NCBI GenBank assembly: GCA_944323265.1
Contig: CALURX010000017.1
Coordinates: 1-41,984 of the forward strand
Source: Candidatus Gastranaerophilales bacterium
GTDB lineage: Bacteria > Cyanobacteriota > Vampirovibrionia > Gastranaerophilales > Gastranaerophilaceae
DNA length: 41,984 bases
Reading direction: 5' to 3'
The translations under genes and the position numbers were made by a program. This document shows positions 741-25,862 of this stretch, one piece after another (position 1 is the stretch's first letter; every line of letters begins with the position of its first letter). A model generated the notes under the pieces. The model was not told where the DNA came from, did not search any database, and saw only the letters and a list, made by a program, of their open reading frames with translations.

Positions 741-815
741 AATTGATACGAAACCGACACAAAGCTCGGAAGTAGAGTTCCAATCCTTTGTCTTCAGAGT
801 TATCGTGTGTGTACG

Positions 816-2999
816 ATGGCTAAAGAATATATAAATATAAGCAAAGCTTTTGGCTCCTCACTCGTTGAAAAAGCCGGTGCAAGCACCGCTTTTAACTCGT
901 TCGTCCCCATTAATAAAATAGCAGAGATAAAAGGATTAACGAGTAATCGTTCATTAAGGCTTGCGATTCAAAAAGGTAAATACATCGCACGTGAAGTAAA
1001 GGTTTTCGGAGGTACTTCGTATGAAATTCTTTATTCAAGTTTAGAACCTGAAGTACAGGAAAAACTCCAAGATGAATTAATTAAAGAAGCAACGCAATCA
1101 AAATGCAAAGCGTTAGTTCCGCTTGATACTAAACCAAAATATCCGACTTTTATCGCTGAAAGTGCAAAATTAACAGCATTGGCAAGAGTGGACGTTGTTA
1201 AGGCTTTACAGAATATTAGAACCAAATACAACACTAAAAAAGAGGCGGATTCGGTATTTTTAGATTTGTATAATTCGGGAATGCTTTTACCTAAAGTTTA
1301 TCAATTCCTCGGAAGTATTTCTATCGGCACACTTCACCGTTGGCTTTGGGCTTATGAAGATTGTGAAGATTACAGAGTGCTTTTGCCGGGGTATAAATAT
1401 TCAAAACAAAATGAATACAACACAATCCTTACGCAGGAGATGAAAAATATATTTATTAAATTCCTTATGCACCCCAATAAATTCAGTGTCGGTAAAGCTA
1501 TAAAACTTACACGACATATTTTAGAGAAACGTGGATTTGAAAATATTCCCTGTGTTTTAACATTCAGACGATTCGCTGAACACTACAAAAAGAATAATTA
1601 TGCACAATGGATTTTATTTAGAGAGGGAGAAAAAGCCTACCACGATAAAGTGGAAGCATATATTGAGAGGGATATTTCAGTCCTTAATGTTGGAGATGTG
1701 TTAATAGCAGACGGACACGTTCTCAACTTCCAAGTAATAAATCCATTTACAGGAAAACCGACCAGAGCAACTTTGGTCGGTTTTTTAGACTGGAAATCAA
1801 CCGCATTAGTCGGTTATGAAATTATGATGACTGAGAATACTCAGTGCATAGCCTCTGCTCTTAGAAATGCAATTATTAATTTAGGTGTTATTCCGAAAGT
1901 TGTGTATCAAGATAACGGAAAGGCGTTTAAATCTAAATACTTTCAGAATGTAGATTTCGATGAGGAGGGCTTTAACGGAGTGTATGCCAATTTAGGTATC
2001 CGCTCCGTTTTTGCCAAAGCATACAATGCACGTGCAAAAGCTATAGAGCGATTCTTCCTTGAATTTCAGGAAGAATTTGAAAAAATGATGACAAGTTATA
2101 TAGGCACAAGTATTGAGGATAAACCTGCGTGGTTAAAACGTGGTGAAAAACTCCACAGAGATATGCACAAAAAACTAACTAAAAACTACATTCCGACAGT
2201 TCAAAAGGCTATTAAATTTATTGATTGCTGGATTGAGTTTCACAATTCAAAACCTTGTCCTAATGATTATTCAAAAACTATTCAGGAGATGTTAAGCGGT
2301 GTTCAAAAACAGGATATAGATAAAAATATTTTGAACGACCTTATGATGAAAACTGAGGCTCGGACGATAAATAAACATGGAATAACGTTCCTCGGTATGC
2401 ATTACAGGAGTGATGTTATACTTGGACTTCGGGATAAGGTTTATGTCCGATACAGCTTATTTGACCTTTCAAAAGTTCATGTTTATTCGATGAAAGGCGA
2501 ATTTTTATGCGTGGCACATAGGGTGCAAAAAGTGCATCCGATGGCAAATGTTCTCGGCACAGTTAAGGATATGGAAGAATACAAGCAACAATACCAAAGA
2601 CAGCAACGGCAGTTTAAAAAGGCTAAAAAAGAATTTTTGAAATATTATCCGAGTGAAAAAGCTGAGGTTTTGGAAATTGAACCGGAGGAAAATGTTATTG
2701 AAGTAATACCGGAACCAAAGCCAAAACGTGAACACAAACAAACCCCTCGTGAACGGCAGATGAACGTGCCGATGTTCAATTCAAATTATGAAAAATACGA
2801 GTGGTTGATGGAAAACGGCTGTACAAATCCTGAACAAAGGAAATGGCTCGCCGATTACATTAGAAGTGATGAATATATAAATATATATGCGGATTGCGAG
2901 CAGAGGGCGGAGAACGGAAACGGTGAGTTTTCGTTCGTAGACCCGTTTAATGCGAGCAACCAAGAAGGAGACGAAAACGATGAAGAAAACATTTATTAA
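816..2999 (+). CDS. MuA-like DDE transposase
   Basis: Catalytic subunit for strand transfer by a Mu-type transposon (727 residues from the ATG at 816). An upstream in-frame GTG at 807 is possible, but neither start has a clear ribosome site. Residues about 30-75 resemble a Mu-type N-terminal DNA-binding domain. The RNase-H-fold core carries the triad D299 (IADGH), D366 (YQDNG) and E411 (KAIERFF). Residues about 530-590 fit the Mu C-terminal beta-barrel, and the charged tail after 600 fits the segment that contacts MuB in phage Mu. Length is close to MuA (663 residues) plus extra tail. The reading frame is intact. The MuB-like ATPase gene overlaps its 3' end, so the two are translationally linked. 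No phage structural genes are nearby, so this is a transposon rather than a prophage. Confidence 0.93.
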   Translation: MAKEYINISKAFGSSLVEKAGASTAFNSFVPINKIAEIKGLTSNRSLRLAIQKGKYIAREVKVFGGTSYEILYSSLEPEVQEKLQDELIKEATQSKCKALVPLDTKPKYPTFIAESAKLTALARVDVVKALQNIRTKYNTKKEADSVFLDLYNSGMLLPKVYQFLGSISIGTLHRWLWAYEDCEDYRVLLPGYKYSKQNEYNTILTQEMKNIFIKFLMHPNKFSVGKAIKLTRHILEKRGFENIPCVLTFRRFAEHYKKNNYAQWILFREGEKAYHDKVEAYIERDISVLNVGDVLIADGHVLNFQVINPFTGKPTRATLVGFLDWKSTALVGYEIMMTENTQCIASALRNAIINLGVIPKVVYQDNGKAFKSKYFQNVDFDEEGFNGVYANLGIRSVFAKAYNARAKAIERFFLEFQEEFEKMMTSYIGTSIEDKPAWLKRGEKLHRDMHKKLTKNYIPTVQKAIKFIDCWIEFHNSKPCPNDYSKTIQEMLSGVQKQDIDKNILNDLMMKTEARTINKHGITFLGMHYRSDVILGLRDKVYVRYSLFDLSKVHVYSMKGEFLCVAHRVQKVHPMANVLGTVKDMEEYKQQYQRQQRQFKKAKKEFLKYYPSEKAEVLEIEPEENVIEVIPEPKPKREHKQTPRERQMNVPMFNSNYEKYEWLMENGCTNPEQRKWLADYIRSDEYINIYADCEQRAENGNGEFSFVDPFNASNQEGDENDEENIY

Positions 3000-3747
3000 A
3001 ACAAAAAACGTCAAGCGGTTTGTAGCATTGATGGACGAGTTGCAGAAACTTCCGCCGAACATTCCGAAACTTGCATTAGTTTACGGCGACCATGGGCTTG
3101 GAAAATCTCAGACAATCCAGTGGTGGGCGGATAAAAACGATTCTGTATATGTTCGGGCAACGCAAGGGATGACGAGCAGATGGCTTTTATCTGAAATTGC
3201 GGAGGAACTTGGAGAAGAACCTTACTGGCATACGCAGGAAACATTTGAACTCATAGAGAATTATTTAAGGCAGAATCCTAAAATTATTATTGTTGATGAG
3301 ATTGATTATTTGATTGAAAAACATACGGTTGAGACTTTAAGGGATTTGCACGATAGGACAGCTTGTCCGATAGTTCTAGTCGGAATGGGATCAGCTGATA
3401 AAAAACTTGCGAGATATCCGCATCTGGTAGATAGGCTTTATAAAACGCTTAAGTTTGAACAATTCAATTCTGAAGATATAACCGAGATTCTTCAACAAAT
3501 AACCGATTTGGAGTTTACTCCTGATGCAATAAATTACCTTGCAACAAGGACAAATCAGTTCAGGCAACTGGTTAAGCTGATTAATAAAATAGAAAAATTG
3601 TCTGAGACTAACAAAATTGATGAGATAGACGAATATACTTTGAAAGGACTGCTTAATGAAAGGCGGATTTTGACAAGGCTGAGCGAAGCGAACGCCGTCC
3701 CTGTGAAAAATCTGACGGAATGCAGATTTGCCGGAGGTAAATCGTAA
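2980..3747 (+). CDS. MuB-like AAA+ target-selection ATPase
   Basis: ATP-dependent target-capture partner of the MuA-like transposase. The Walker A motif GDHGLGKS is at residues 36-43 and Walker B IIIVDEID at 102-109. The rest matches the MuB/TniB AAA+ type, with a helical C-terminus. The ATG at 2980 is chosen because AAGGAG (2965-2970) sits nine bases upstream. An ATG at 2950 is in frame but lacks a site. The start overlaps the transposase gene by 20 bp and the TAA overlaps the next ATG (TAATG), so three genes form one tight operon. It has 255 residues, slightly shorter than phage MuB (312). Confidence 0.9.
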   Translation: MKKTFIKTKNVKRFVALMDELQKLPPNIPKLALVYGDHGLGKSQTIQWWADKNDSVYVRATQGMTSRWLLSEIAEELGEEPYWHTQETFELIENYLRQNPKIIIVDEIDYLIEKHTVETLRDLHDRTACPIVLVGMGSADKKLARYPHLVDRLYKTLKFEQFNSEDITEILQQITDLEFTPDAINYLATRTNQFRQLVKLINKIEKLSETNKIDEIDEYTLKGLLNERRILTRLSEANAVPVKNLTECRFAGGKS

Positions 3748-4457
3748 TGGAGTGCAAAGATTTTGAACCGTCAATAATCCAAGAGAACAGAGTATTAAGG
3801 CTTTGCAGAAGGTTGGATAAATTTACGCTTGATAAGATTTCGACTATTGCAGAAGATATTAACGAGGCTGTATTAGAGTTACTTCTCTTGACGTTGGTGC
3901 AAGAAGGAAAACTCACATTAAGGGATGGCTTGTATTTCTACAACAAAAAACAAATAAGTAAAAAGCCGTCTATACTGTCTTTTTATCCTAAACAAATCAT
4001 TGATACTGCGATTCGTTGTTTCTGTCTTTCAATTCCTGCATACAAGACCTCCCAAATAATAGGAATTGCAAATAATTCAACTGTCAAATTATATAATATT
4101 TTTAGAGAATTGATTTACGAACGCCAGACTAAAAAACTAAAATCTTTGTATGAAAAAACTCCGCAACAAGGCAGAAACAGGATATTTTTTAACGAGGAAT
4201 TATCTTTTTATGTCTACAACAATCAGGTCTTTGTAAGTGAAAATCTATTTCAAAGTTCTGATGAAAAAGTGTTTACCAAGTCTGAAGTACAAGAATTCAA
4301 AAAGGTTTACTCCTATTTAACAAGGTTTACTTCACACAATTCCAATAAAGTTGACCTGCCGCAAAAATTAGCCGAGGGAATCTGGCGGAGAAATAAGGAG
4401 TTTAAGGAACTTTATTTTGATTTAAAAGTTAATTTGCTTAATATAAATCAGAATTAG
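3747..4457 (+). CDS. Third gene of the Mu-like operon, HTH-like, function unknown
   Basis: A 236-residue protein whose start overlaps the stop of the MuB-like gene. Residues about 10-65 look like a winged-helix fold with a short beta hairpin (LTLRDGLYFYNKK). Residues about 80-115 (IPAYKTSQIIGIANNSTV) resemble the helix-turn-helix found in front of some transposase domains. No zinc-binding cysteines, Walker motif or DDE triad is seen. The tight coupling argues for a role in transposition, such as end or target recognition or regulation, comparable in position to TniQ-type third genes. I see no TniQ signature. Confidence 0.75.
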   Translation: MECKDFEPSIIQENRVLRLCRRLDKFTLDKISTIAEDINEAVLELLLLTLVQEGKLTLRDGLYFYNKKQISKKPSILSFYPKQIIDTAIRCFCLSIPAYKTSQIIGIANNSTVKLYNIFRELIYERQTKKLKSLYEKTPQQGRNRIFFNEELSFYVYNNQVFVSENLFQSSDEKVFTKSEVQEFKKVYSYLTRFTSHNSNKVDLPQKLAEGIWRRNKEFKELYFDLKVNLLNINQN

Positions 4458-14059: not shown

Positions 14060-14091
14060 ATAATTTTTATAACAAATTATTGTAATCAAAA

Positions 14092-14181
14092 GCTGGGTAG
14101 ACTTTAGTCTACCGGAATATATAACAAAAAACATATTAAATCTTGAATAAAATTTTATTGGTAAACTAAAGTCTACCCTAC
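14092..14181. repeat. Palindromic repeat family A, copy 1
   Basis: The element begins GGGTAGACTTTAGTCTACC (14095) and ends with the complementary arm up to CCCTAC at 14181. Each end is itself a hairpin (GGTAGACT pairing with AGTCTACC), and the two ends pair with each other. The core of about 45 bp is AT-rich. It fills the gap between the 13517 and 14222 genes, so the latter probably has its own transcription or RNA-stability control. Confidence 0.88.
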
Positions 14182-14221: not shown

Positions 14222-15070
14222 ATGCAAGATAATGTAGAAAAGTTTAGTGAACGAGTTGATAACTTAAGGAAAGAAGGAAAATATGCCGAGCTTATAGACT
14301 TTTGTGAAAGAACTTTCACGGAGCTTAAAGGCAACACTCAAGAAGAGCGGGAAATACTTGCTATAGCTTACCGCACGAAAGGAATCTTATGTCTTATTAA
14401 CGAAGATTTTGTAACAGCAGCAGAATGCCTCACAAGGGCAATCGAATACAATCCGAATGATGTAATAGCATATGCTAATCGCGGAAGTGCAAAAGATTGC
14501 TTAAAACAATACATTGAAGCAATTGAAGATTATAATAAGGTTATTGAATTGAACCCGGATTTTGCGGAGATATATAATATCCGTGGTAATATAAAATCTA
14601 AGTTAGGACAATATATTGAAGCTATAGAAGATTTTAATAAGGCAATCGAATTAAATCCGAATGATGCAGATGCATATCATAACCGCGGAAATGCAAAATT
14701 TAATTTAGGACAAATTGCAGAAGCTATTGAAGATTTCAGTAAGGTTATTGAATTAAATCCGAATTATGCAGAAGCATATTATGACATAGGTCTTGCAAAA
14801 GCTAATTTAGGGCAATACACAGAAGCAATAGAAGATTTTAATAAGGCTATTGAATTAAATCCTGAATATATAGAAGCCTATAATAATTGTGGAAACGCAA
14901 AAGTCTATTTGGGACAATTTGCTGAAGCCATAGAAGATTACAATAAGGCTATTGAATTGTTCCCTGATTATGCAAGAGCATATTATAACCGCGGTTATGC
15001 AAAAGAGTGTCTGGGGCTAAATTCAGAAGCCGAAGAGGATTACAAAAAAGCTAATGAATTAAGAAAGTAG
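14222..15070 (+). CDS. TPR-repeat protein
   Basis: A 282-residue cytoplasmic protein. Residues 1-47 form a helical cap shared with the proteins at 22735 and 24240 (VEKF, YAELIDFC, EEREILAIA). Residues 48-282 are about seven 34-residue tetratricopeptide repeats with the consensus G-x-Y-x-E-A-I-E-D-x-x-K-A-I-E-L-N-P. The repeats are also very similar in DNA (102-bp period), which points to recent expansion and possible copy-number change. TPRs make protein-binding superhelices. In type III systems such proteins serve as chaperones, a possible parallel given the export-type protein at 19696. The TAG stop lies within the following palindromic repeat. Confidence 0.9.
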   Translation: MQDNVEKFSERVDNLRKEGKYAELIDFCERTFTELKGNTQEEREILAIAYRTKGILCLINEDFVTAAECLTRAIEYNPNDVIAYANRGSAKDCLKQYIEAIEDYNKVIELNPDFAEIYNIRGNIKSKLGQYIEAIEDFNKAIELNPNDADAYHNRGNAKFNLGQIAEAIEDFSKVIELNPNYAEAYYDIGLAKANLGQYTEAIEDFNKAIELNPEYIEAYNNCGNAKVYLGQFAEAIEDYNKAIELFPDYARAYYNRGYAKECLGLNSEAEEDYKKANELRK

Positions 15071-15158
15071 GGTAGACTTTAGTCTACCGGAATATATAAC
15101 AAAAAAACGATATTAAATCTTAAATAAAATTTTATTGGTAGACTAAAGTCTACCCTAC
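15067..15158. repeat. Palindromic repeat family A, copy 2
   Basis: It runs from GTAGGGTAGACT (15067) to AGTCTACCCTAC (15158) and is nearly identical to copies 1 and 3. The first TAG is the stop codon of the TPR gene at 14222. Confidence 0.9.
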
Positions 15159-15184: not shown

Positions 15185-15943
15185 ATGAAGAAGATTATCT
15201 TAACATTATTAATTTTTATAACCGGTACATCAGTATTTGCCAAGCCTAATTACACGTATACAATGAGCGAAACTCCGGCATCTGCGTATTCCGGAACTTA
15301 TGTAAATGAAGAAATTAAGGCTCCGCTTACGCAAATCGGGCTTCCGGAAGAATATTTAGAACCCCAGGCCGAAGAACAAGGGCTGGAGATTGAGTGGAAT
15401 GAATGGCACGCTCGTGTAAGAAACAAGATAATGAATGATATGATGCATACAAATTACATATCAAAATCGCTCTACTATCTTATATATACAGTCCATAGGA
15501 ATGGAGAAATCAGCAATATTATAACTGCACAATTTGTAGAAGATGATTCTGAATTCTATAAAATAACTATAAATAATCATGAAAAACCCCGATTTGATTA
15601 TGAATATGCCGTTTCAATGAAAAAAGGGTCTGACAATAGTTATAAAACTTATATTTACAACATAGGCAACTACAATCTTTCAACAAAAGACGGTGCATTA
15701 ATCGATGCTATGAAACATTCAAGCTTCAAGAAGAATGCGGCTTTATTTGACAGACCTTATGCAACAAAACAAATGGCAAAAAAAATTGAAAAAGCCGCTA
15801 AAAGTCCGGTATTAAATTTCCCTGCAAAAAGCAAACGCGATAAAGTGGTCGTTTATCAAACTATGGCTATTGATCTTGATATTCCGGAATTTAAACCTCA
15901 ATACAACTCTTCTGATTTTAATGATGTAGAGAAGGTGAAATAG
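15185..15943 (+). CDS. Secreted TolA-C-like protein 1
   Basis: A 252-residue exported protein: signal peptide residues 1-19 (cleavage after VFA). A short linker carries YSGTYVNEEIKAPLTQIG and PEEYLEPQAEEQGLE. A TolA/TonB-C-like domain of about 75-252 holds WNEWHARVRNKI, the strand LIYTVHRNGEISNI, the segment LNFPAKSKRDKVVV and the ending FNDVEK. The order matches the C-terminal part of the 12518 protein. The upstream 40 bp and the signal peptide codons are almost the same as those of the 16941 gene, so the two arose by duplication. It probably works in the periplasm with the TolA-shaped protein; no partner is proven. Confidence 0.8.
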   Translation: MKKIILTLLIFITGTSVFAKPNYTYTMSETPASAYSGTYVNEEIKAPLTQIGLPEEYLEPQAEEQGLEIEWNEWHARVRNKIMNDMMHTNYISKSLYYLIYTVHRNGEISNIITAQFVEDDSEFYKITINNHEKPRFDYEYAVSMKKGSDNSYKTYIYNIGNYNLSTKDGALIDAMKHSSFKKNAALFDRPYATKQMAKKIEKAAKSPVLNFPAKSKRDKVVVYQTMAIDLDIPEFKPQYNSSDFNDVEKVK

Positions 15944-17711: not shown

Positions 17712-18761
17712 ATGAAAGTAAAACACTTAGTATTATTATCAGCATTATCACTGGGCTTGGTGGGCTTAATAGCACACGCAAGCACCCCGCAGGAAGATAT
17801 TGCGACTTATACCACCTATATTAATGACGGGGCAAAATACGGCCCAAATCACGTTGCCAGCGATTATGCAGAACGAGCAGTCGCTTATGCAAAAGCCGGA
17901 CAATGGCAAAACTGTTTGAATGATATGAACTGGCTAAAAACTAATAAAATATATACCTGGGCTACCTGGAAGGGGGTTCCTGAGGCAAGAACACAGGCCT
18001 TATTAACATTGGGAAGAACAGATGAAGCTGTTCAAGATATGTATGAGACATTCTTGGTTAGCTGCGGCTCTAGTGATTTAAGAAGATTAAAAGAGTTTAT
18101 AGCTAAAAATCCTCAATATTCAAACTATCTGGATTTGAATGCCAGAGCCGACTTAATTCAAAAATATCAGTCTTCGGGCAAAGAAATGTGGACATCAGCA
18201 AATTATACCAGTGCAATAAGAAGTACTGAAAATAGCTGGTACATGCTTCACGTTGCTGAAAAAATGATGGCAAATGCTAATTTAGCGCAAAAATATCAAT
18301 TCTATGATACTTTTCATACTATAGCAAATAACAGGTATGAAACTTGCAAATGGCATTCCGATGATCCGGCATACAATGTTTCCGGTGATACAAGAGAAAA
18401 ATTTATCGCTAATGGTTCGATTGCGTGTTCTTATGTTTTGAGCCAGGAAGGTATGGAAGAAGGTTTAAGAATTGCAGAAACAGCTGCAAAAACTTTTATG
18501 CAGCAATCCGGTGACACAAGTTATACATCGGCCTGGGAACAAGCTATAAAATACTGGAATGAGAGATTAGGAAGAAGCTCTTCTCCTGCAAAGAAGTCTA
18601 CTCCTTCAAATTCTGTAGATTATAGCTCTTCAAGTTCTTCAACAGATGCACTTTCTCCGGGTACGGTTTTAGACACTGTTAACGAAGGCGTGGAGGGAGT
18701 TAACAGTTTAATGCGCGGTATCAGAGATGTAAAAAGCGGGCTTAAAGGCTTAGGATTTTAA
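17712..18761 (+). CDS. Exported helical-repeat protein with serine-rich linker
   Basis: A 349-residue protein with a signal peptide (cleavage after AHA at 23). Residues 30-290 are helical and TPR-like (DYAERAVAYAKAGQWQNCLN, ARTQALLTLGRTDEAVQDM), as in Sel1/TPR folds of periplasmic proteins. Residues 295-325 are a serine-rich flexible linker, and the last 30 residues form an amphipathic helix (VNSLMRGIRDVKSGLKGLGF) that might touch a membrane. AAAGGAG precedes the ATG. It may be a periplasmic scaffold for the TolA-C-like proteins on both sides. No family is assigned. Confidence 0.75.
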   Translation: MKVKHLVLLSALSLGLVGLIAHASTPQEDIATYTTYINDGAKYGPNHVASDYAERAVAYAKAGQWQNCLNDMNWLKTNKIYTWATWKGVPEARTQALLTLGRTDEAVQDMYETFLVSCGSSDLRRLKEFIAKNPQYSNYLDLNARADLIQKYQSSGKEMWTSANYTSAIRSTENSWYMLHVAEKMMANANLAQKYQFYDTFHTIANNRYETCKWHSDDPAYNVSGDTREKFIANGSIACSYVLSQEGMEEGLRIAETAAKTFMQQSGDTSYTSAWEQAIKYWNERLGRSSSPAKKSTPSNSVDYSSSSSSTDALSPGTVLDTVNEGVEGVNSLMRGIRDVKSGLKGLGF

Positions 18762-18931: not shown

Positions 18932-19555
18932 GTGTTTAGAAGACGATATAGAATTTTTAAAATATTAGCATTTATATTTTTGATAACAATCTGCCTGCGT
19001 GCAGTTGCAAATCAAACAAACAAAGCAGCAACGGGCGGTGGAGTATACGTTGATGAAGAGATTACAGCTCCGGTTACTAAGATTGCAGATCCTGAGACTA
19101 AAAAAGCAGAGAGCCAATCAATAGATTTTAACTCCCCAGCTTTTGCCGAGGATTTGAAAAATTATTTAGAAAATAATATTGATATGCCCAAAGGGTATAT
19201 TCTCTCTTTTAGTTTTTCTTACGACAAAAACGGAACTATCGCGGCTATCCATTTGATTTCTGTTTTAGAAAAAGAGTTTACAGGGGACTATCCGGCCCGG
19301 GTTTACGGCGATGTATGTAAGCGCGATAAATTAGCCGAGGGGCAAATTTATGTTACAGATAATTCTACATCGGGCGATTTAAGAGTTGATTCAATCAATA
19401 ACACAAAAGATGGGAAATATTTGGTAAAAATATATGACTTAATAAAAAATATCGGTAAATCTCATATAATAGCTCTTCCACCTTATGGACAAGACGCAGG
19501 ATTTATTCATACAGACGGAATGTATTATGGCGGAAAAGTTTATATTTCACAGTAA
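18932..19555 (+). CDS. Secreted TolA-C-like protein 3 (short form)
   Basis: A 207-residue protein from a GTG start with AAAGG nine bases upstream. The N-terminus (FRRRYR, then hydrophobic 9-24) is a signal or anchor. The linker motif GGGVYVDEEITAPVTKI matches the YVNEEI motif of the 15185 and 16941 proteins, and YILSFSFSYDKNGTIAAIHL matches their central strand pair. The conserved W-x-x-W segment and the FNDVE ending are missing, so this is a diverged or reduced member. Repeats of family A flank it on both sides. Confidence 0.75.
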   Translation: MFRRRYRIFKILAFIFLITICLRAVANQTNKAATGGGVYVDEEITAPVTKIADPETKKAESQSIDFNSPAFAEDLKNYLENNIDMPKGYILSFSFSYDKNGTIAAIHLISVLEKEFTGDYPARVYGDVCKRDKLAEGQIYVTDNSTSGDLRVDSINNTKDGKYLVKIYDLIKNIGKSHIIALPPYGQDAGFIHTDGMYYGGKVYISQ

Positions 19556-19560
19556 AAATA

Positions 19561-19652
19561 GTAGGGTAGACTTCAGTCTACCGGAATATATCACAAAGAT
19601 AACTTTGTTAAACTTAAATAAAATTTTATTGGTAGACTTTAGTCTACCCTAC
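19561..19652. repeat. Palindromic repeat family A, copy 3
   Basis: It runs from GTAGGGTAGACTTCAGTCTACC to AGTCTACCCTAC. The core is diverged from copies 1-2 but the terminal arms are kept, including compensating symmetry. It ends 44 bp before the fusion gene at 19696. Confidence 0.88.
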
Positions 19653-19695: not shown

Positions 19696-22683
19696 ATGGC
19701 AAATCAAGATTTTAATATAGATGCATTCGTCAATGAACTTACAGGTCAGGTTAAAAATACTCTTCCTGACGATATTGGGCATAAAACCCAAACTTTTATT
19801 GAAAAAACGTTTGATAAATTTTTGCGTATGGCAAATGAGGCTATTGATAATAGTGATTCAGGGTTTAGCGTTGAAGCTAAAGAATGGTTATTACAAGTTA
19901 TAGCGGAATGGACTTTCCATAAAACCATTGACCTGGATAGAGCCAAGATTCCTTTTGAATGCTGGGAGTCAATGTTGCAAAAGGTTGCTTTTGCAACATT
20001 TGAGGTATGTAAACAGGGGCTTAGCAAAAAATATGAACCGGAAAAAATTCTTTCCGCTGTGGAATATCACGTGGATAAAATGTATAACACATCTTTGCAA
20101 GATCTCTTTGAAAAAGGAGTTATAAACAAAGAGACTTCGGAAAGGGCTCAAAAAGAATCAAATATTGATAAGATGTTTGAAGAGTCTCAACAAAAGGAGG
20201 CTGAATCTAAAAAAGTATCCAGCAAAAATAAACGGCCAAAAATAGATTTATCGCTTCAACTCTCTAATATGTGGAAAGCTTGGAGAACAAAATTGTTGTA
20301 TCTTTCAATTGCATGTGCTGTTATTATTACATTGGTTTGTGTTTTGTACTTTGGGAAATCAATTTTGGCGGCGGTTGAGCCATATAAAAATGTGATTATT
20401 CAAATTGGGATAGGGATTATCGTATTGGCAGTTATTGTTGGTGCTATCGTATATTTTGCTGCGCAAAAAGAGGTTCAAGAACAGTTGAAAGAAGTTGATG
20501 AGGTAAAACAGAAGATGCGGGAATTAGTTAATCCTGACAGACAATATGAGAGGTTAGGCACGGATATTTTATGTTTGCAGATCTCAGCAGAGCTTCTTCC
20601 TATTGCAGATCCGGATCAGGAGGGAATTTTGTTACCCAACACAGCAGCATTAAGGCAGGAGTTGACAGACGTGCTCGGCTATATAATACCGAGTATCAGA
20701 ATATTTGATAATTCCGAATTGGATTCTTACGAATACCGGATTTCGGTGCGTCAACAAACAGTAGGCACGGGGTCTGTTTATCCGAATAGATATATGGTTA
20801 ATGAAGATGAATGGAGGGCACAAGCAGGCAAAATGTCTGAAGATGCCATTGTAGGAGTAAATCCCCTAACCGGTGAGCTGTGCAGCTATTGGATAAATAA
20901 AGAAGATGCAGATAAATATCCGAGTATAACGGCTCTTGAACCGCTGGAAGTTATAAAGAAACACCTTAGACAATTGGTAATAAGGAATGTTGATTCTATA
21001 ATCTCGACTTATGATATAGAAAAATATTTTGAAACCGCCAATAAAATCGCCTCTTCACAAAATATAACGGAAAAATTAAAAGAACGTCTGGAACCTGAAG
21101 ACATAAGACAGGTTTTCGCAAACCTTATAAGAGAAGAAGTTTCGATAAAAGATATTTTATTCGTATTTGACAGATTAAGTGATTATTCAAGAACGACTAA
21201 AAATCCTCATATATTGTCAGAAATGCTTAGAGAAGATTTTGCACGGCAAATTAGTTTAAAACTTGCAGATGAAGACAGAACGCTTTATGTTGTGGAATTT
21301 GATAAAAACTATACAAAATATCTTGAAAATAATGTAAAAACTACTCACAACGGCCAAGAGTTTACAATACTTCAAGAACAGATTAATGAATTAATTGAAG
21401 GTACTGCTATGAAGTTAATGCTTGCTCATCAAGTAATTGGCAAGCCTGCTGTTGTTCTTTGTTCACCTAAATTCAGGCAAGCTATGTATAGAACTCTTGA
21501 GCGCTATTTACCTTTTGTTACAGTAATTTCCCAAACAGAAGTTGTTTCGGAAGTTAGAGCTGAAACGCTTGAAATAGTAGAGCTAGAGTGTGCAGACAAC
21601 TATGCGGAAGAAGATATTGTTGATAATGAATTTTATGAACAAGAGCCGTCGTTAGGGAGAGTTATTGATTCAGACGGAAACCCGCTTGATGGCAAAGAGT
21701 TAGATTTTCCATTAGAAAAGATTTTTTCAGAAATCTCTCCTGCTGATTCCAGCGAACCGGCTCCGATTACAAAAATTTTTAAAACCGGAGTTAGAGCCGT
21801 TGACGCATTTATAACCATGGGGTACGGACAGAAGATGACAGTATTTGCGCATCAGGGCTGCGGATTAAGCATTTTTCTCGGCTTAATCTTAAAGAATTCT
21901 CAAGCAGATATTAATATTGTTTCATTAGCAGCTAGTTCCGTAGAAGATGCCTGGAGTTTTATCAATGACTCTATAAAAAGTGATACAAAAGCATTAAGAA
22001 AAACCATAGTTATTTGCTCAACTCCGCTTGATTCTACAGAAAAAATTAAGAAGAATTTTGAAACGGCGGTAGCCCTTTGTGAATATTACAGAGATAAGGG
22101 TAAAAATGTATTATTTAGTTGTGATATGTTAGAGTTAATACTTAATGCTGCCGAAAAAATAGCTATGGAAAACGGCGAGCCGGCATGTAAAAATGATTAT
22201 CGTATGTCCGTAAAAACCTGGTATCAAGATTTAATTAACCGTTGTAAAAGTAATAATAAGGGTACGATTACAACAATAATGAGTACCATAATAAATTCGG
22301 CAGACAAAGATAATAAAACTGTAAATATAATAAGAGCTAATACCCAAGGTCATATTTTCTTATCAAGAAAGGTTGCAGAGCAAAATATTTATCCGGCAAT
22401 TGATATTTTAGGTTGTTTTTCCAGTTATCAAGCCCGGCTCTTGAGTGATGAACAAATGTCTGCTTCAAACAATGTGCGGAATTTAATGGCTTTATACAAA
22501 GAAAAAGAAGCATTTTTCAAGAGCTATAAATATGTTGCAGGCCAAAACCCGATAGACGATTTTACCATAAGAAAATATAACGAAATAATAAACTTTATTA
22601 GACAGCGTGTGGACGAAAACCCAACCCTTGAAGAATCTTTGCAAGGTCTCGTTCAACTTGCTGAAGATATTAGGAGGGAATGA
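19696..22683 (+). CDS. FlhA/SctV cytoplasmic domain fused to a degenerate FliI/SctN ATPase
   Basis: A 995-residue single protein. Residues 1-190 are a new, mostly helical N-terminus. Two hydrophobic helices lie at about 200-220 and 232-256. Residues 283-625 match the FlhA/SctV cytoplasmic domain from start to end: GTDILCLQISAELLPIAD, IIPSIRIFDNSEL, NEYRI-type EYRISVRQ, LIREEVSIKDILFVFDRLSDY, and VVLCSPKFRQAMYRTLERYL. Residues 651-990 match the FliI/SctN ATPase, including LGRVIDSDGNPLDGK, FKTGVRAVDAFITMGYGQ and GHIFLSRKVAEQNIYPAID. Catalysis is lost: the P-loop reads FAHQGCGLSIFLG (K to L724, T to I726), the catalytic glutamate is S747 and the arginine finger is S910. The export gate's eight-helix membrane part is absent. 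AGGAG precedes the ATG; the frame is open throughout. Order V then N is the order of ssaV-ssaN and escV-escN, so an operon fusion is a likely origin. Role inferred: membrane scaffold or substrate receptor. Confidence 0.92.
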   Translation: MANQDFNIDAFVNELTGQVKNTLPDDIGHKTQTFIEKTFDKFLRMANEAIDNSDSGFSVEAKEWLLQVIAEWTFHKTIDLDRAKIPFECWESMLQKVAFATFEVCKQGLSKKYEPEKILSAVEYHVDKMYNTSLQDLFEKGVINKETSERAQKESNIDKMFEESQQKEAESKKVSSKNKRPKIDLSLQLSNMWKAWRTKLLYLSIACAVIITLVCVLYFGKSILAAVEPYKNVIIQIGIGIIVLAVIVGAIVYFAAQKEVQEQLKEVDEVKQKMRELVNPDRQYERLGTDILCLQISAELLPIADPDQEGILLPNTAALRQELTDVLGYIIPSIRIFDNSELDSYEYRISVRQQTVGTGSVYPNRYMVNEDEWRAQAGKMSEDAIVGVNPLTGELCSYWINKEDADKYPSITALEPLEVIKKHLRQLVIRNVDSIISTYDIEKYFETANKIASSQNITEKLKERLEPEDIRQVFANLIREEVSIKDILFVFDRLSDYSRTTKNPHILSEMLREDFARQISLKLADEDRTLYVVEFDKNYTKYLENNVKTTHNGQEFTILQEQINELIEGTAMKLMLAHQVIGKPAVVLCSPKFRQAMYRTLERYLPFVTVISQTEVVSEVRAETLEIVELECADNYAEEDIVDNEFYEQEPSLGRVIDSDGNPLDGKELDFPLEKIFSEISPADSSEPAPITKIFKTGVRAVDAFITMGYGQKMTVFAHQGCGLSIFLGLILKNSQADINIVSLAASSVEDAWSFINDSIKSDTKALRKTIVICSTPLDSTEKIKKNFETAVALCEYYRDKGKNVLFSCDMLELILNAAEKIAMENGEPACKNDYRMSVKTWYQDLINRCKSNNKGTITTIMSTIINSADKDNKTVNIIRANTQGHIFLSRKVAEQNIYPAIDILGCFSSYQARLLSDEQMSASNNVRNLMALYKEKEAFFKSYKYVAGQNPIDDFTIRKYNEIINFIRQRVDENPTLEESLQGLVQLAEDIRRE

Positions 22684-22734: not shown

Positions 22735-23556
22735 ATGAATATAGAAGAATTTAAACAAAAGGTTAATGTATTAGATTCAGAGCAAAAGTATGATGAAATA
22801 CTTGCACTCTGTGATAACCAGCTTGCCGAAATAAACTCCGAAAGCGCGGATAATAAAGAATTCCTTGCGGATATATATCATACAAAGAGGGTTGTATATA
22901 ATATTCAAAAAGAATATCTGGACAGGCTTGGACCTTTAATGAGACCGAATGCAAAAGAATATACCAAACAAAAAATTTCTTCTTTACCTTTCAATGTTTC
23001 GGAGGCGAACAGAGAATTTATAAGCAGCTTGGCAGACCAAATTTGGTTAAAATCCATGTATATTGCTCTGGCTGAATACTCAACAAATGAACAGAACTAC
23101 AAGTTTTTAACAGAACTTATACTTGATGAGATTTTCCTGCATTTTGTTAATCTAAAAAACGCCAATTTCCCTCAAGAAAGTTATAACAGAATTCTTTCAG
23201 AAGCATTGTGGAGTACTACCCATGTTGCTGCCGGAAACTTAACAGAGAATACTAATTTTGAAGAAGTTAAAAATATGGCGCATGAAGCCGGACTTTCTTC
23301 TTTTTTAAGAGAAGCCCGCACGCTTCTGGAAGAAAACCTGATTACACAAGAAAATTATGATAAACTTCTGGAAATTCCGGAGCTTAAAGAATATCAGGCA
23401 AAATATGACAAAGAGATATTGGAATCCCTTGAGGAACTGCAAAAAAAGGTTCATAATCCGTTTGTTATAGTTGGAGATTTGATAATGTACGGGATTGTTT
23501 ACCCGATATTAAGAGTCCTAAAAAATATCTCAAAGAAATTAAACAAGAAAGGATAA
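22735..23556 (+). CDS. TPR-cap protein with C-terminal membrane segment
   Basis: A 273-residue protein. Residues 1-60 match the helical cap of the TPR proteins at 14222 and 24240 (MNIEEFKQKVNVLDSEQKYDEILALCDNQLAEI). The rest is helical but without clear TPR consensus. A hydrophobic stretch around 246-262 (IVGDLIMYGIVYPILRVL) followed by a basic tail suggests C-terminal membrane association. It follows the fusion gene by 51 bp with AAGAAAGGA before the ATG, so it may be a partner that binds the fusion protein at the membrane. The last codons contain the ribosome site of the next gene. Confidence 0.72.
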   Translation: MNIEEFKQKVNVLDSEQKYDEILALCDNQLAEINSESADNKEFLADIYHTKRVVYNIQKEYLDRLGPLMRPNAKEYTKQKISSLPFNVSEANREFISSLADQIWLKSMYIALAEYSTNEQNYKFLTELILDEIFLHFVNLKNANFPQESYNRILSEALWSTTHVAAGNLTENTNFEEVKNMAHEAGLSSFLREARTLLEENLITQENYDKLLEIPELKEYQAKYDKEILESLEELQKKVHNPFVIVGDLIMYGIVYPILRVLKNISKKLNKKG

Positions 23557-24239: not shown

Positions 24240-25862
24240 ATGCAACATAATGTAGAAAAATTTAGAGAAAAGGCTAATAACCTAATGTTGGACAAAAAAT
24301 ATGATGAACTTATAAGCCTTTGTAATGAAAAACTCGCAGAACTTAAAGGCGAAACCCAAGAAGAGCGGGAAATACTTGCAATAGCCTGCCAGCTAAAAGG
24401 AAACGTATTTTACATTAACGAAGATTTTGAATCAACAGAAGAATATTATATCAAATCTATAAAATACAAACCCAATTATGCCAAATTGTACTACAATCTT
24501 GGAATTTTAAAAATGGAATTGGAAAAATACGAGGAAGCTATAGAGCTTTTTACGAAATCCATTGAATTACAACCGGATTATGAAAACGCATATTATAGCA
24601 GAGGACAGGCAAAAGGATATCTGGGGCTGGAATCAGATGCCATGGAGGATTACAAAAAGGCGGAAGAATTAAAACAAAATAGCAAAGAATCCGTAAAAAT
24701 CGTAACAAATCCTGACGGAAGCAGTATGGAATATTATTCAAATCCGGCCTGGGTAATGTGGCAGAGTCATATTCTATTTAAAACAAAAGACGGAACTCTT
24801 ATCAAAAAAGAAATGTTTTATGATACGGATTTTAAGTCCTGGGGAGTTACAACAGAGTATTTTTGGCAGGAAGACGGAAGCTGTATAGAACAGGATAAAG
24901 TCGATAACCGAAGGCTTTTGACCCATGGTGATGTCGATTTTTATTATGTGAAAAGAGTCAAGGATACTCAAGGAAGAGTCGTTTTAATGGAATATTCACT
25001 TGATAAAGATTTCGGCAATATATGCAGCAAAAATCTATGCTTTTATGGAGATGACGGAAGCCGTACAGAATATGAGTATTGGATGGAAATACAAACACCC
25101 GAGCAAATAGAACAAGCCGGATTATTTCCTGCCAGGAAATCAATGTATAATTCCTCAGAAAAGCTTGTTGGTACAATAGACTATTATGATTTTGATTGCA
25201 AGCGGCCCGCTCTTATCAGAACTCTTGAATATTTAGATGACGGTACATTTATTGATAAAGGAGTTTATCCTGAAAAACACCCCTTTGGCAAAAATGAACA
25301 TTCTTATATACATACAGAATCTTCGGGGCAGGTGTCTATCCAAAATTTTTCAGATACTAACTTTACTGATTTAATAGAGAGTACAAATTACGAAAATACG
25401 GAGTATGGGTATATAAAATCTACCTTCTTCACTCATCAGCAAAGGGAAAATGCATTAGAGCTTACGTACAAATCAGTAAGAGAAACCAAGGAAACCCCGA
25501 CTGCTCTAGAAGAATACTATAAGCTGGAATATTATTCCGATGAAAATTTTAATAATATATGCTGTGTTTATGAATATAAAATAAATCGGGAAAGCAATGC
25601 AGATTTTTCTTGTGAAAGAAGAGCTGTATATACAGAATTGGAAGAAAACAGAGACTTTTTATCGCTTATTGCACAGGAAGATGGCCTCTGGAAATCGAAT
25701 ATTTACTATTATTACGATAATAACTTCGAAAAACTTGCTAAAAAACAAGTACAAACCCCTATCAACTCTAATGATAACAACAATATAATTAACGTAGAGG
25801 CCAGCTGGTATGACGAACAAGGGAATTTAATAAAAAGTGAAAACCAGGATTTCTATATTTGA
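24240..25862 (+). CDS. TPR protein with C-terminal beta-repeat domain
   Basis: A 540-residue protein. Residues 1-60 are the shared helical cap (VEKFREKANNLMLDKKYDELI, EEREILAIA). Residues 62-145 hold two to three TPRs (YNLGILKMELEKYEEAIELF, YYSRGQAKGYLG). Residues about 155-540 are a long beta-rich region with repeated units of the type Y-Y-D-x-x-F-x-x-x-x-x-x-E-Y and DGS turns, somewhat like MORN or RHS-type repeats, but no named family is certain. It lacks a signal peptide. The 22-bp leader with its ribosome site is identical to that of the 23560 gene. It is the last gene before the right-hand tRNA repeat. Confidence 0.78.
   Translation: MQHNVEKFREKANNLMLDKKYDELISLCNEKLAELKGETQEEREILAIACQLKGNVFYINEDFESTEEYYIKSIKYKPNYAKLYYNLGILKMELEKYEEAIELFTKSIELQPDYENAYYSRGQAKGYLGLESDAMEDYKKAEELKQNSKESVKIVTNPDGSSMEYYSNPAWVMWQSHILFKTKDGTLIKKEMFYDTDFKSWGVTTEYFWQEDGSCIEQDKVDNRRLLTHGDVDFYYVKRVKDTQGRVVLMEYSLDKDFGNICSKNLCFYGDDGSRTEYEYWMEIQTPEQIEQAGLFPARKSMYNSSEKLVGTIDYYDFDCKRPALIRTLEYLDDGTFIDKGVYPEKHPFGKNEHSYIHTESSGQVSIQNFSDTNFTDLIESTNYENTEYGYIKSTFFTHQQRENALELTYKSVRETKETPTALEEYYKLEYYSDENFNNICCVYEYKINRESNADFSCERRAVYTELEENRDFLSLIAQEDGLWKSNIYYYYDNNFEKLAKKQVQTPINSNDNNNIINVEASWYDEQGNLIKSENQDFYI

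Follow-up and report, generated by a model that had tools for sequence, protein, structure and literature searches.

A three-part chimera of type III export proteins, collinear with a second export operon, in a Candidatus Gastranaerophilales genome

Introduction

Type III export machines contain layers otherwise made of separate proteins, among them the FlhA/SctV gate and the FliI/SctN ATPase, and the chain described here would represent a natural tether between two such layers. Natural FliR-FlhB fusions, which are working gate subunits, are known from some clostridia; like the present chain they place two export-apparatus proteins in one polypeptide, but they join other partners and they work. 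Flagellar export genes have been repurposed in Lysobacter enzymogenes (PMC7277350), and the flagellar orthologues of Chlamydia pneumoniae are export components apparently used outside the flagellum (PMC2830194). Both cases resemble ours in having export parts apparently outside a flagellum, whereas the genes there are separate. The open-access literature yielded no description of a natural chain joining the gate cytoplasmic domain to the export ATPase: the parts are known, and their combination is undescribed as far as we found.

Candidatus Gastranaerophilales are non-photosynthetic, gut-dwelling kin of the cyanobacteria. Complete flagellar gene sets have been reported for only some of them and partial sets for others (PMC4040986, PMC5877343), and we found in the literature no description of two export systems, or of a second flagellum-derived system, in this order. 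Here we analyze a window that is an entire 42-kb contig of one such genome (G000) and carries the fusion gene.

Results

Domain layout of the fusion protein

The reading frame starts with ATG and runs through 995 codons without an internal stop (Table 1), and its codon-position base composition is even along the whole chain and matches that of the neighbouring genes. An earlier note on this DNA had claimed that the FlhA/SctV cytoplasmic region and FliI/SctN share one frame, which was borne out by Pfam, NCBIfam and PDB sequences. The FlhA part was matched by Pfam FHIPEP at residues 241–620 (E = 8.5e-56), covering profile positions 280–656 of 657 only, and by the NCBIfam FlhA model at residues 241–627 (E = 4.2e-53), while the ATPase part was matched by the NCBIfam SctN model (residues 651–988, E = 8.4e-72) and by Pfam ATP-synt_ab (698–909, E = 1.9e-38) and T3SS_ATPase_C (917–986, E = 7.4e-14). 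Sequence searches of the PDB returned FlhA for residues 261–629 and SsaN, EscN and FliI for residues 650–987. Based on these E-values, a chance likeness to FlhA/SctV and FliI/SctN is excluded. A structure search had been proposed as a check, and for the FlhA part it agreed: with the predicted chain as query, all 50 Foldseek matches shown were FlhA/SctV cytoplasmic domains (best E = 6.3e-14). The full-length model was computed from a correct but thin alignment and reached a pTM of only 0.33; its ATPase half, largely below a pLDDT of 50, was left uninterpreted.

The extent originally assigned to the FlhA part (residues 283–625) captured a real domain but fell short of its linker, which belongs to it from residue 259. 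The alignment to the parent FlhA begins at about fusion residue 247, corresponding to FlhA residue 309, and includes the linker. Likewise, the description as a two-part fusion was right about the FlhA cytoplasmic domain (FlhA_C) and the ATPase, but it missed a third module, residues 1–175, which match the N-terminal domain of a protein that we call X.

Table 1 Features of the fusion gene and its surroundings in the window
Feature	Position	Strand	Remark
Tn7-like transposition genes: Mu/rve transposase, TniB-like AAA ATPase, third gene unmatched	807-4457	+	Context, outside the chimera
Fusion gene: X N-domain, two hydrophobic segments, FlhA_C, inactive FliI/SctN core	19696-22683	+	995 aa
X N-domain, helical, residues 1-175	19696-20220	+	Homologous to X N-terminus
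First hydrophobic segment, probable TM1, residues 200-218	20293-20349	+	Kyte-Doolittle 2.61 over 19 residues
Second hydrophobic segment, probable TM2, residues 234-252	20395-20451	+	Kyte-Doolittle 2.92; located where FlhA has its last TM helix
FlhA/SctV linker and cytoplasmic domain, residues 259-628	20470-21579	+	Pfam, PDB sequence, profile, Foldseek
Asn389 in place of Asp456 (Salmonella numbering), chaperone dimple	20860-20862	+	Mapped via 6ch1 alignment
Lys422 in place of Thr490 (Salmonella numbering), chaperone dimple	20959-20961	+	Mapped via 6ch1 alignment
Acidic linker from FlhA_C to ATPase module, 24 residues (629-652)	21580-21651	+	Falls between two profile matches
FliI/SctN ATPase core without N-terminal domain, residues 653-993	21652-22674	+	Pfam, NCBIfam, profile
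Leu724 in place of Walker A lysine	21865-21867	+	Alignment to FliI proteins
Ser747 in place of catalytic glutamate of GERGREV motif	21934-21936	+	Alignment to FliI proteins
Ser910 in place of presumed arginine finger	22423-22425	+	Column is Arg in 28/28 FliI compared
273-aa protein, 51 bp downstream of fusion gene	22735-23556	+	N-terminus common to island TPR proteins

The N-terminal module and protein X

Residues 1–175 share 37% identity with the amino terminus of X (E = 1.4e-36), a 346-residue protein encoded on contig 4 of the same genome, where its gene is flanked by those of FliF and FliH and precedes a complete FlhA gene. The likeness stops near residue 175–180, where the hydrophobic region and FlhA_C follow; the coiled coil of X and its weakly FliG-like carboxy-terminal part are absent and replaced in the fusion, which thus shares with X of the second export system the N-domain alone. 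Of 33 columns invariant across 55 X proteins, the fusion retains 26, and by this measure the X domain appears as its best conserved module. With residues 1–180 as query, matches were obtained in 279 of 286 genomes of the order.

X itself gave no convincing match in Pfam or NCBIfam, including none to Pfam FliG, and a PDB profile search returned nothing convincing either. The predicted model of X is all helical with a mean pLDDT of 82, and a Foldseek search with the whole protein gave no match below E = 0.001, nor did it assign a known fold to the N-domain. For residues 208–346, FliG chains were among the VIA matches with Z-scores of about 6–7, which lies within the noise of helical bundles. X resembles FliG at most weakly, and occupies FliG's place in its locus. 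The X domain is also used in other settings, namely a 225-residue protein consisting of the N-domain and little else (L094:6390-7067, genome G163) and a 187-residue X-like protein whose gene directly precedes that of X (L097:4492-5055).

Losses in the FlhA and ATPase modules

The fusion contains the four-domain cytoplasmic region of FlhA/SctV with its linker and a membrane attachment just before it, as in the gate. Unlike the gate, it is joined to other parts and lacks the N-terminal multi-helix export channel domain, having two hydrophobic segments only. Among 275 near-invariant FlhA_C positions 134 are kept. Two changed positions correspond to Asp456 and Thr490, conserved residues of the chaperone-docking dimple of Salmonella FlhA (PMC10965912). 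In 96 of 97 parent FlhA proteins the Thr490 position holds Thr, whereas each of the seven fused proteins has K, N, Q or E there; at the Asp456 position one of the seven has Asp. The chaperone-docking dimple of the fusion is thus predicted to be lost.

In the ATPase part, the RecA-type core and the C-terminal domain of FliI/SctN are both present and align throughout. The earlier note had seen the whole FliI linker and ATPase in residues 651–990; the core is indeed there, but homology starts at about FliI residue 108, the N-terminal domain (residues 1 to about 108) is absent, and the catalytic residues are gone. Three catalytic elements that define the FliI/SctN ATPase are replaced (Table 1), including the arginine at the position of Ser910, the presumed arginine finger of EscN/FliI. 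Across 28 FliI proteins 116 positions are invariant, and the fusion has kept 55 of these, including the Walker B aspartate, and lost 61. From these substitutions the ATPase is predicted to be dead, with no hydrolysis expected; it is the least conserved module and could be a passenger. In contrast to FliI, it sits within a membrane protein.

The idea that two working rings had been locked together is not supported, given these losses. An active gate and ATPase in a single chain would have in its favour that both domains lie in one frame, but with the channel domain, Walker lysine, catalytic glutamate, arginine finger and dimple threonine all missing we regard it as hardly credible, and the fusion is predicted to function neither as a gate nor as an ATPase. 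Since it fails the defining features of both FlhA and FliI, we count it as a member of neither family and as a chimera derived from the second export system.

A second type III export system in the order

The genome encodes two type III export systems. The first, flagellar system comprises FliF, FliG, FliH and FliI on contig 6 and FliP, FliQ, FliR, FlhB and FlhA on contig 11, some of these gene names being assigned from order and length. The second comprises FliF, X, FliH and FlhA on contig 4, FliN-like, FliO, FliP, FliQ and FliR on contig 7, and FliI on contig 1 (loci L037, L200 and L038, respectively), and over this set of components it is nearly complete. Neither its FlhA nor its FliF reaches the curated cut-offs of the flagellar or the injectisome models. 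Further loci of this kind are L097 and L098-L177; L097, from another family of the order, also carries FliE and rod-type genes and has fliI directly after flhA. These data point to an order-wide, flagellum-derived second type III export system with X in FliG's place; some of the partial sets of flagellar genes described before may be explained by it.

Within the same family, genus g30 shows the second-system order X, (FliH), FlhA, FliI, and five of six loci there have flhA and fliI spaced by 9–14 bp; in another locus, L177, the two genes overlap by one base. The earlier proposal that adjacency of these genes offers a fusion route is thereby supported. The modules of the chimera follow the order of this operon, as though the operon had been condensed into a single chain, and the X domain at the amino terminus shows that the chimera has three parts, arranged like the genes of the second type III locus in its own genome. 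Furthermore, the fusion ATPase falls on the tree inside the family's second-system FliI clade (subgroup support 95/93), albeit on a very long branch. Together, these comparisons identify the second, flagellum-derived export system of Gastranaerophilales as the source of the chimera.

We propose that an operon X-fliH-flhA-fliI collapsed collinearly into a single chain, for which internal deletions within an operon copy would be a simple route. The deletions would have spared the N-domain of X, a pair of membrane segments (the second being, on this view, the last helix of FlhA), FlhA_C and the FliI core. The carboxy-terminal part of X, FliH, the FlhA channel domain and the FliI N-domain would have been lost, together with ATPase catalysis and the chaperone-docking dimple.

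Distribution of fused proteins

The chain with the ATPase was found in one of 65 genomes of the genus (E ≤ 1e-70) and in one of 383 of the order and one of 382 of the class (both E ≤ 1e-105), and the ATPase part alone, searched against 383 genomes of the family (E ≤ 1e-68), matched only normal-length FliI; these samples overlap, and such strict thresholds could miss diverged copies. With the fusion as query, no relatives were obtained among GTDB contigs or viral contigs. The full three-part chain is accordingly known from one draft genome only.

Shorter X-FlhA_C fusions without an ATPase occur six times (L031, L091, L092, L093, L098 and L099), sporadically, in a second species of the same genus, in three other genera and on one further contig. 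They share with the long chain the X N-domain, the hydrophobic region, FlhA_C and the loss of the dimple threonine, and stop at the start of the acidic linker. Their existence makes the ATPase dispensable for the fusion family. The search across genomes that had been suggested for the FlhA_C-ATPase pair turned up fusions of X and FlhA_C in four genera, and the added ATPase, at the thresholds given above, in this genome alone. By inspection, the neighbourhoods of the shorter fusions vary, and none that is conserved ties these genes to the export genes. The fused FlhA_C domains lie outside the crown of second-system FlhA proteins on the tree, a placement that is unsure because of long branches; a single origin of these domains is conceivable.

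Apparent full FlhA-FliI fusions in other families, with an open frame of 1172–1178 residues, were rejected, as they consist of two separate reading frames with stops between them. Apparent in-frame stops in genome G362 are positioned beyond the end of its shorter protein.

That only a single draft assembly holds the chain, with a junction where the shorter fused proteins end, raises the question of an assembly artefact in which an unrelated ATPase gene was attached to an X-FlhA_C gene. We consider this very unlikely: no repeat is listed at the junction of FlhA_C and ATPase, frame and codon composition continue across it, the searches found no closer copy of the ATPase part elsewhere, and this part begins without its N-domain and would therefore be no normal gene alone. 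A functionless product of a recent rearrangement, whose frame has so far escaped stops, would agree with the occurrence of the full chain in one genome, the very long ATPase branch and the many lost FliI invariants. It is nevertheless unlikely, given the 995 open codons of gene-like composition throughout and the presence of X-FlhA_C fusions in several genera, which have kept open frames over long divergence where stops would be expected without selection.

Genomic surroundings

Tn7-like genes and a tyrosine integrase occupy the left end of the contig (807–5876). The neighbours of the fusion gene at 17712 and 22735 had no counterparts in the relatives' genomes searched, which marks the fusion locus as an accessory island; a FeoB gene likewise had no counterpart in the relatives searched. 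The contig itself is argued to belong to the order, since in these searches the X domain is found only there. The locus had been taken for an island of envelope proteins, and an island it is, but rather an accessory region with transposition genes. The 273-residue protein encoded after the fusion gene carries a diverged X N-domain at residues 73–220 (profile E = 1.5e-7); towards its C-terminus lies a hydrophobic segment (Kyte-Doolittle 1.85 at residue 244).

Three island proteins (14222–15070, 22735–23556 and 24240–25862) have a common N-terminal TPR-like stretch with similar start regions, and the genes at 15185, 16941 and 18932 encode related exported-looking proteins. A 98-nt intergenic repeat with 22-nt inverted ends (GTAGGGTAGACTTTAGTCTACC), MITE- or REP-like, is present at 14084–14181, 15061–15158 and 19555–19652, the last copy directly upstream of the fusion gene.

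Discussion

We tentatively favour, with a probability of about 0.42, that the fusion is a membrane-anchored, inert look-alike subunit which docks onto the second export system and there regulates it, brakes it or serves as an assembly scaffold, rather than a transporter. Transport by the chain is not expected, since channel, catalysis and canonical cargo dock are all missing. With two membrane segments, the X domain and FlhA_C would come to lie together on the cytoplasmic side, where they naturally belong. The better retention of the X domain (26/33 as compared to 55/116 for the ATPase) points to retained binding through X, and the conserved X domain together with the ring-type folds makes docking at the base of the second system plausible. 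Held on a membrane hairpin, the X domain and FlhA_C would dock there as X and FlhA do, and the docked chain would regulate or block the system. We also count in favour of this reading that the nearly complete parent system is still encoded in the genome, that X-FlhA_C fusions recur in four genera and that the adjacent gene carries a second X-like domain. Weighing against it are the occurrence of the full chain in a single draft genome, the low conservation of the ATPase part, the varied neighbourhoods of the other fused genes and the faint likeness of X to FliG.

The same adjacent gene can be read differently, as a partner of a chimera that has left export and become a membrane-anchored scaffold, on which FlhA_C and the inactive ATPase fold organize the X-domain/TPR and exported proteins of the island. 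The setting in an accessory island beside such proteins and the disappearance of precisely the export-specific features (channel, dimple and catalysis) would fit, and export genes can gain new jobs, as in Lysobacter (PMC7277350). With most positions invariant in export X proteins kept in the X domain, however, and the second system present in the same genome, we hold this scaffold to be improbable, if still a serious contender. A bolder variant of the docking model, rather unlikely and offered as speculation, is that a mobile or accessory island carries a single-chain inert decoy of the adaptor, gate and ATPase layers, which would insert into the host's machine and shut it down or retune it.

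The same dimple residue has been lost repeatedly, in seven fused proteins, which suggests that evolution has separated the structural role of FlhA_C from its cargo role, an idea that is testable.

A second kind of FlhA_C paralogue, likewise without a channel domain, was observed in two families of the order (L030:8289-9785 on contig 44 of G000; L036:6588-8072 in G042). These proteins of 494–498 residues carry a small N-terminal domain faintly like DUF4177 and form one group on the FlhA_C tree.
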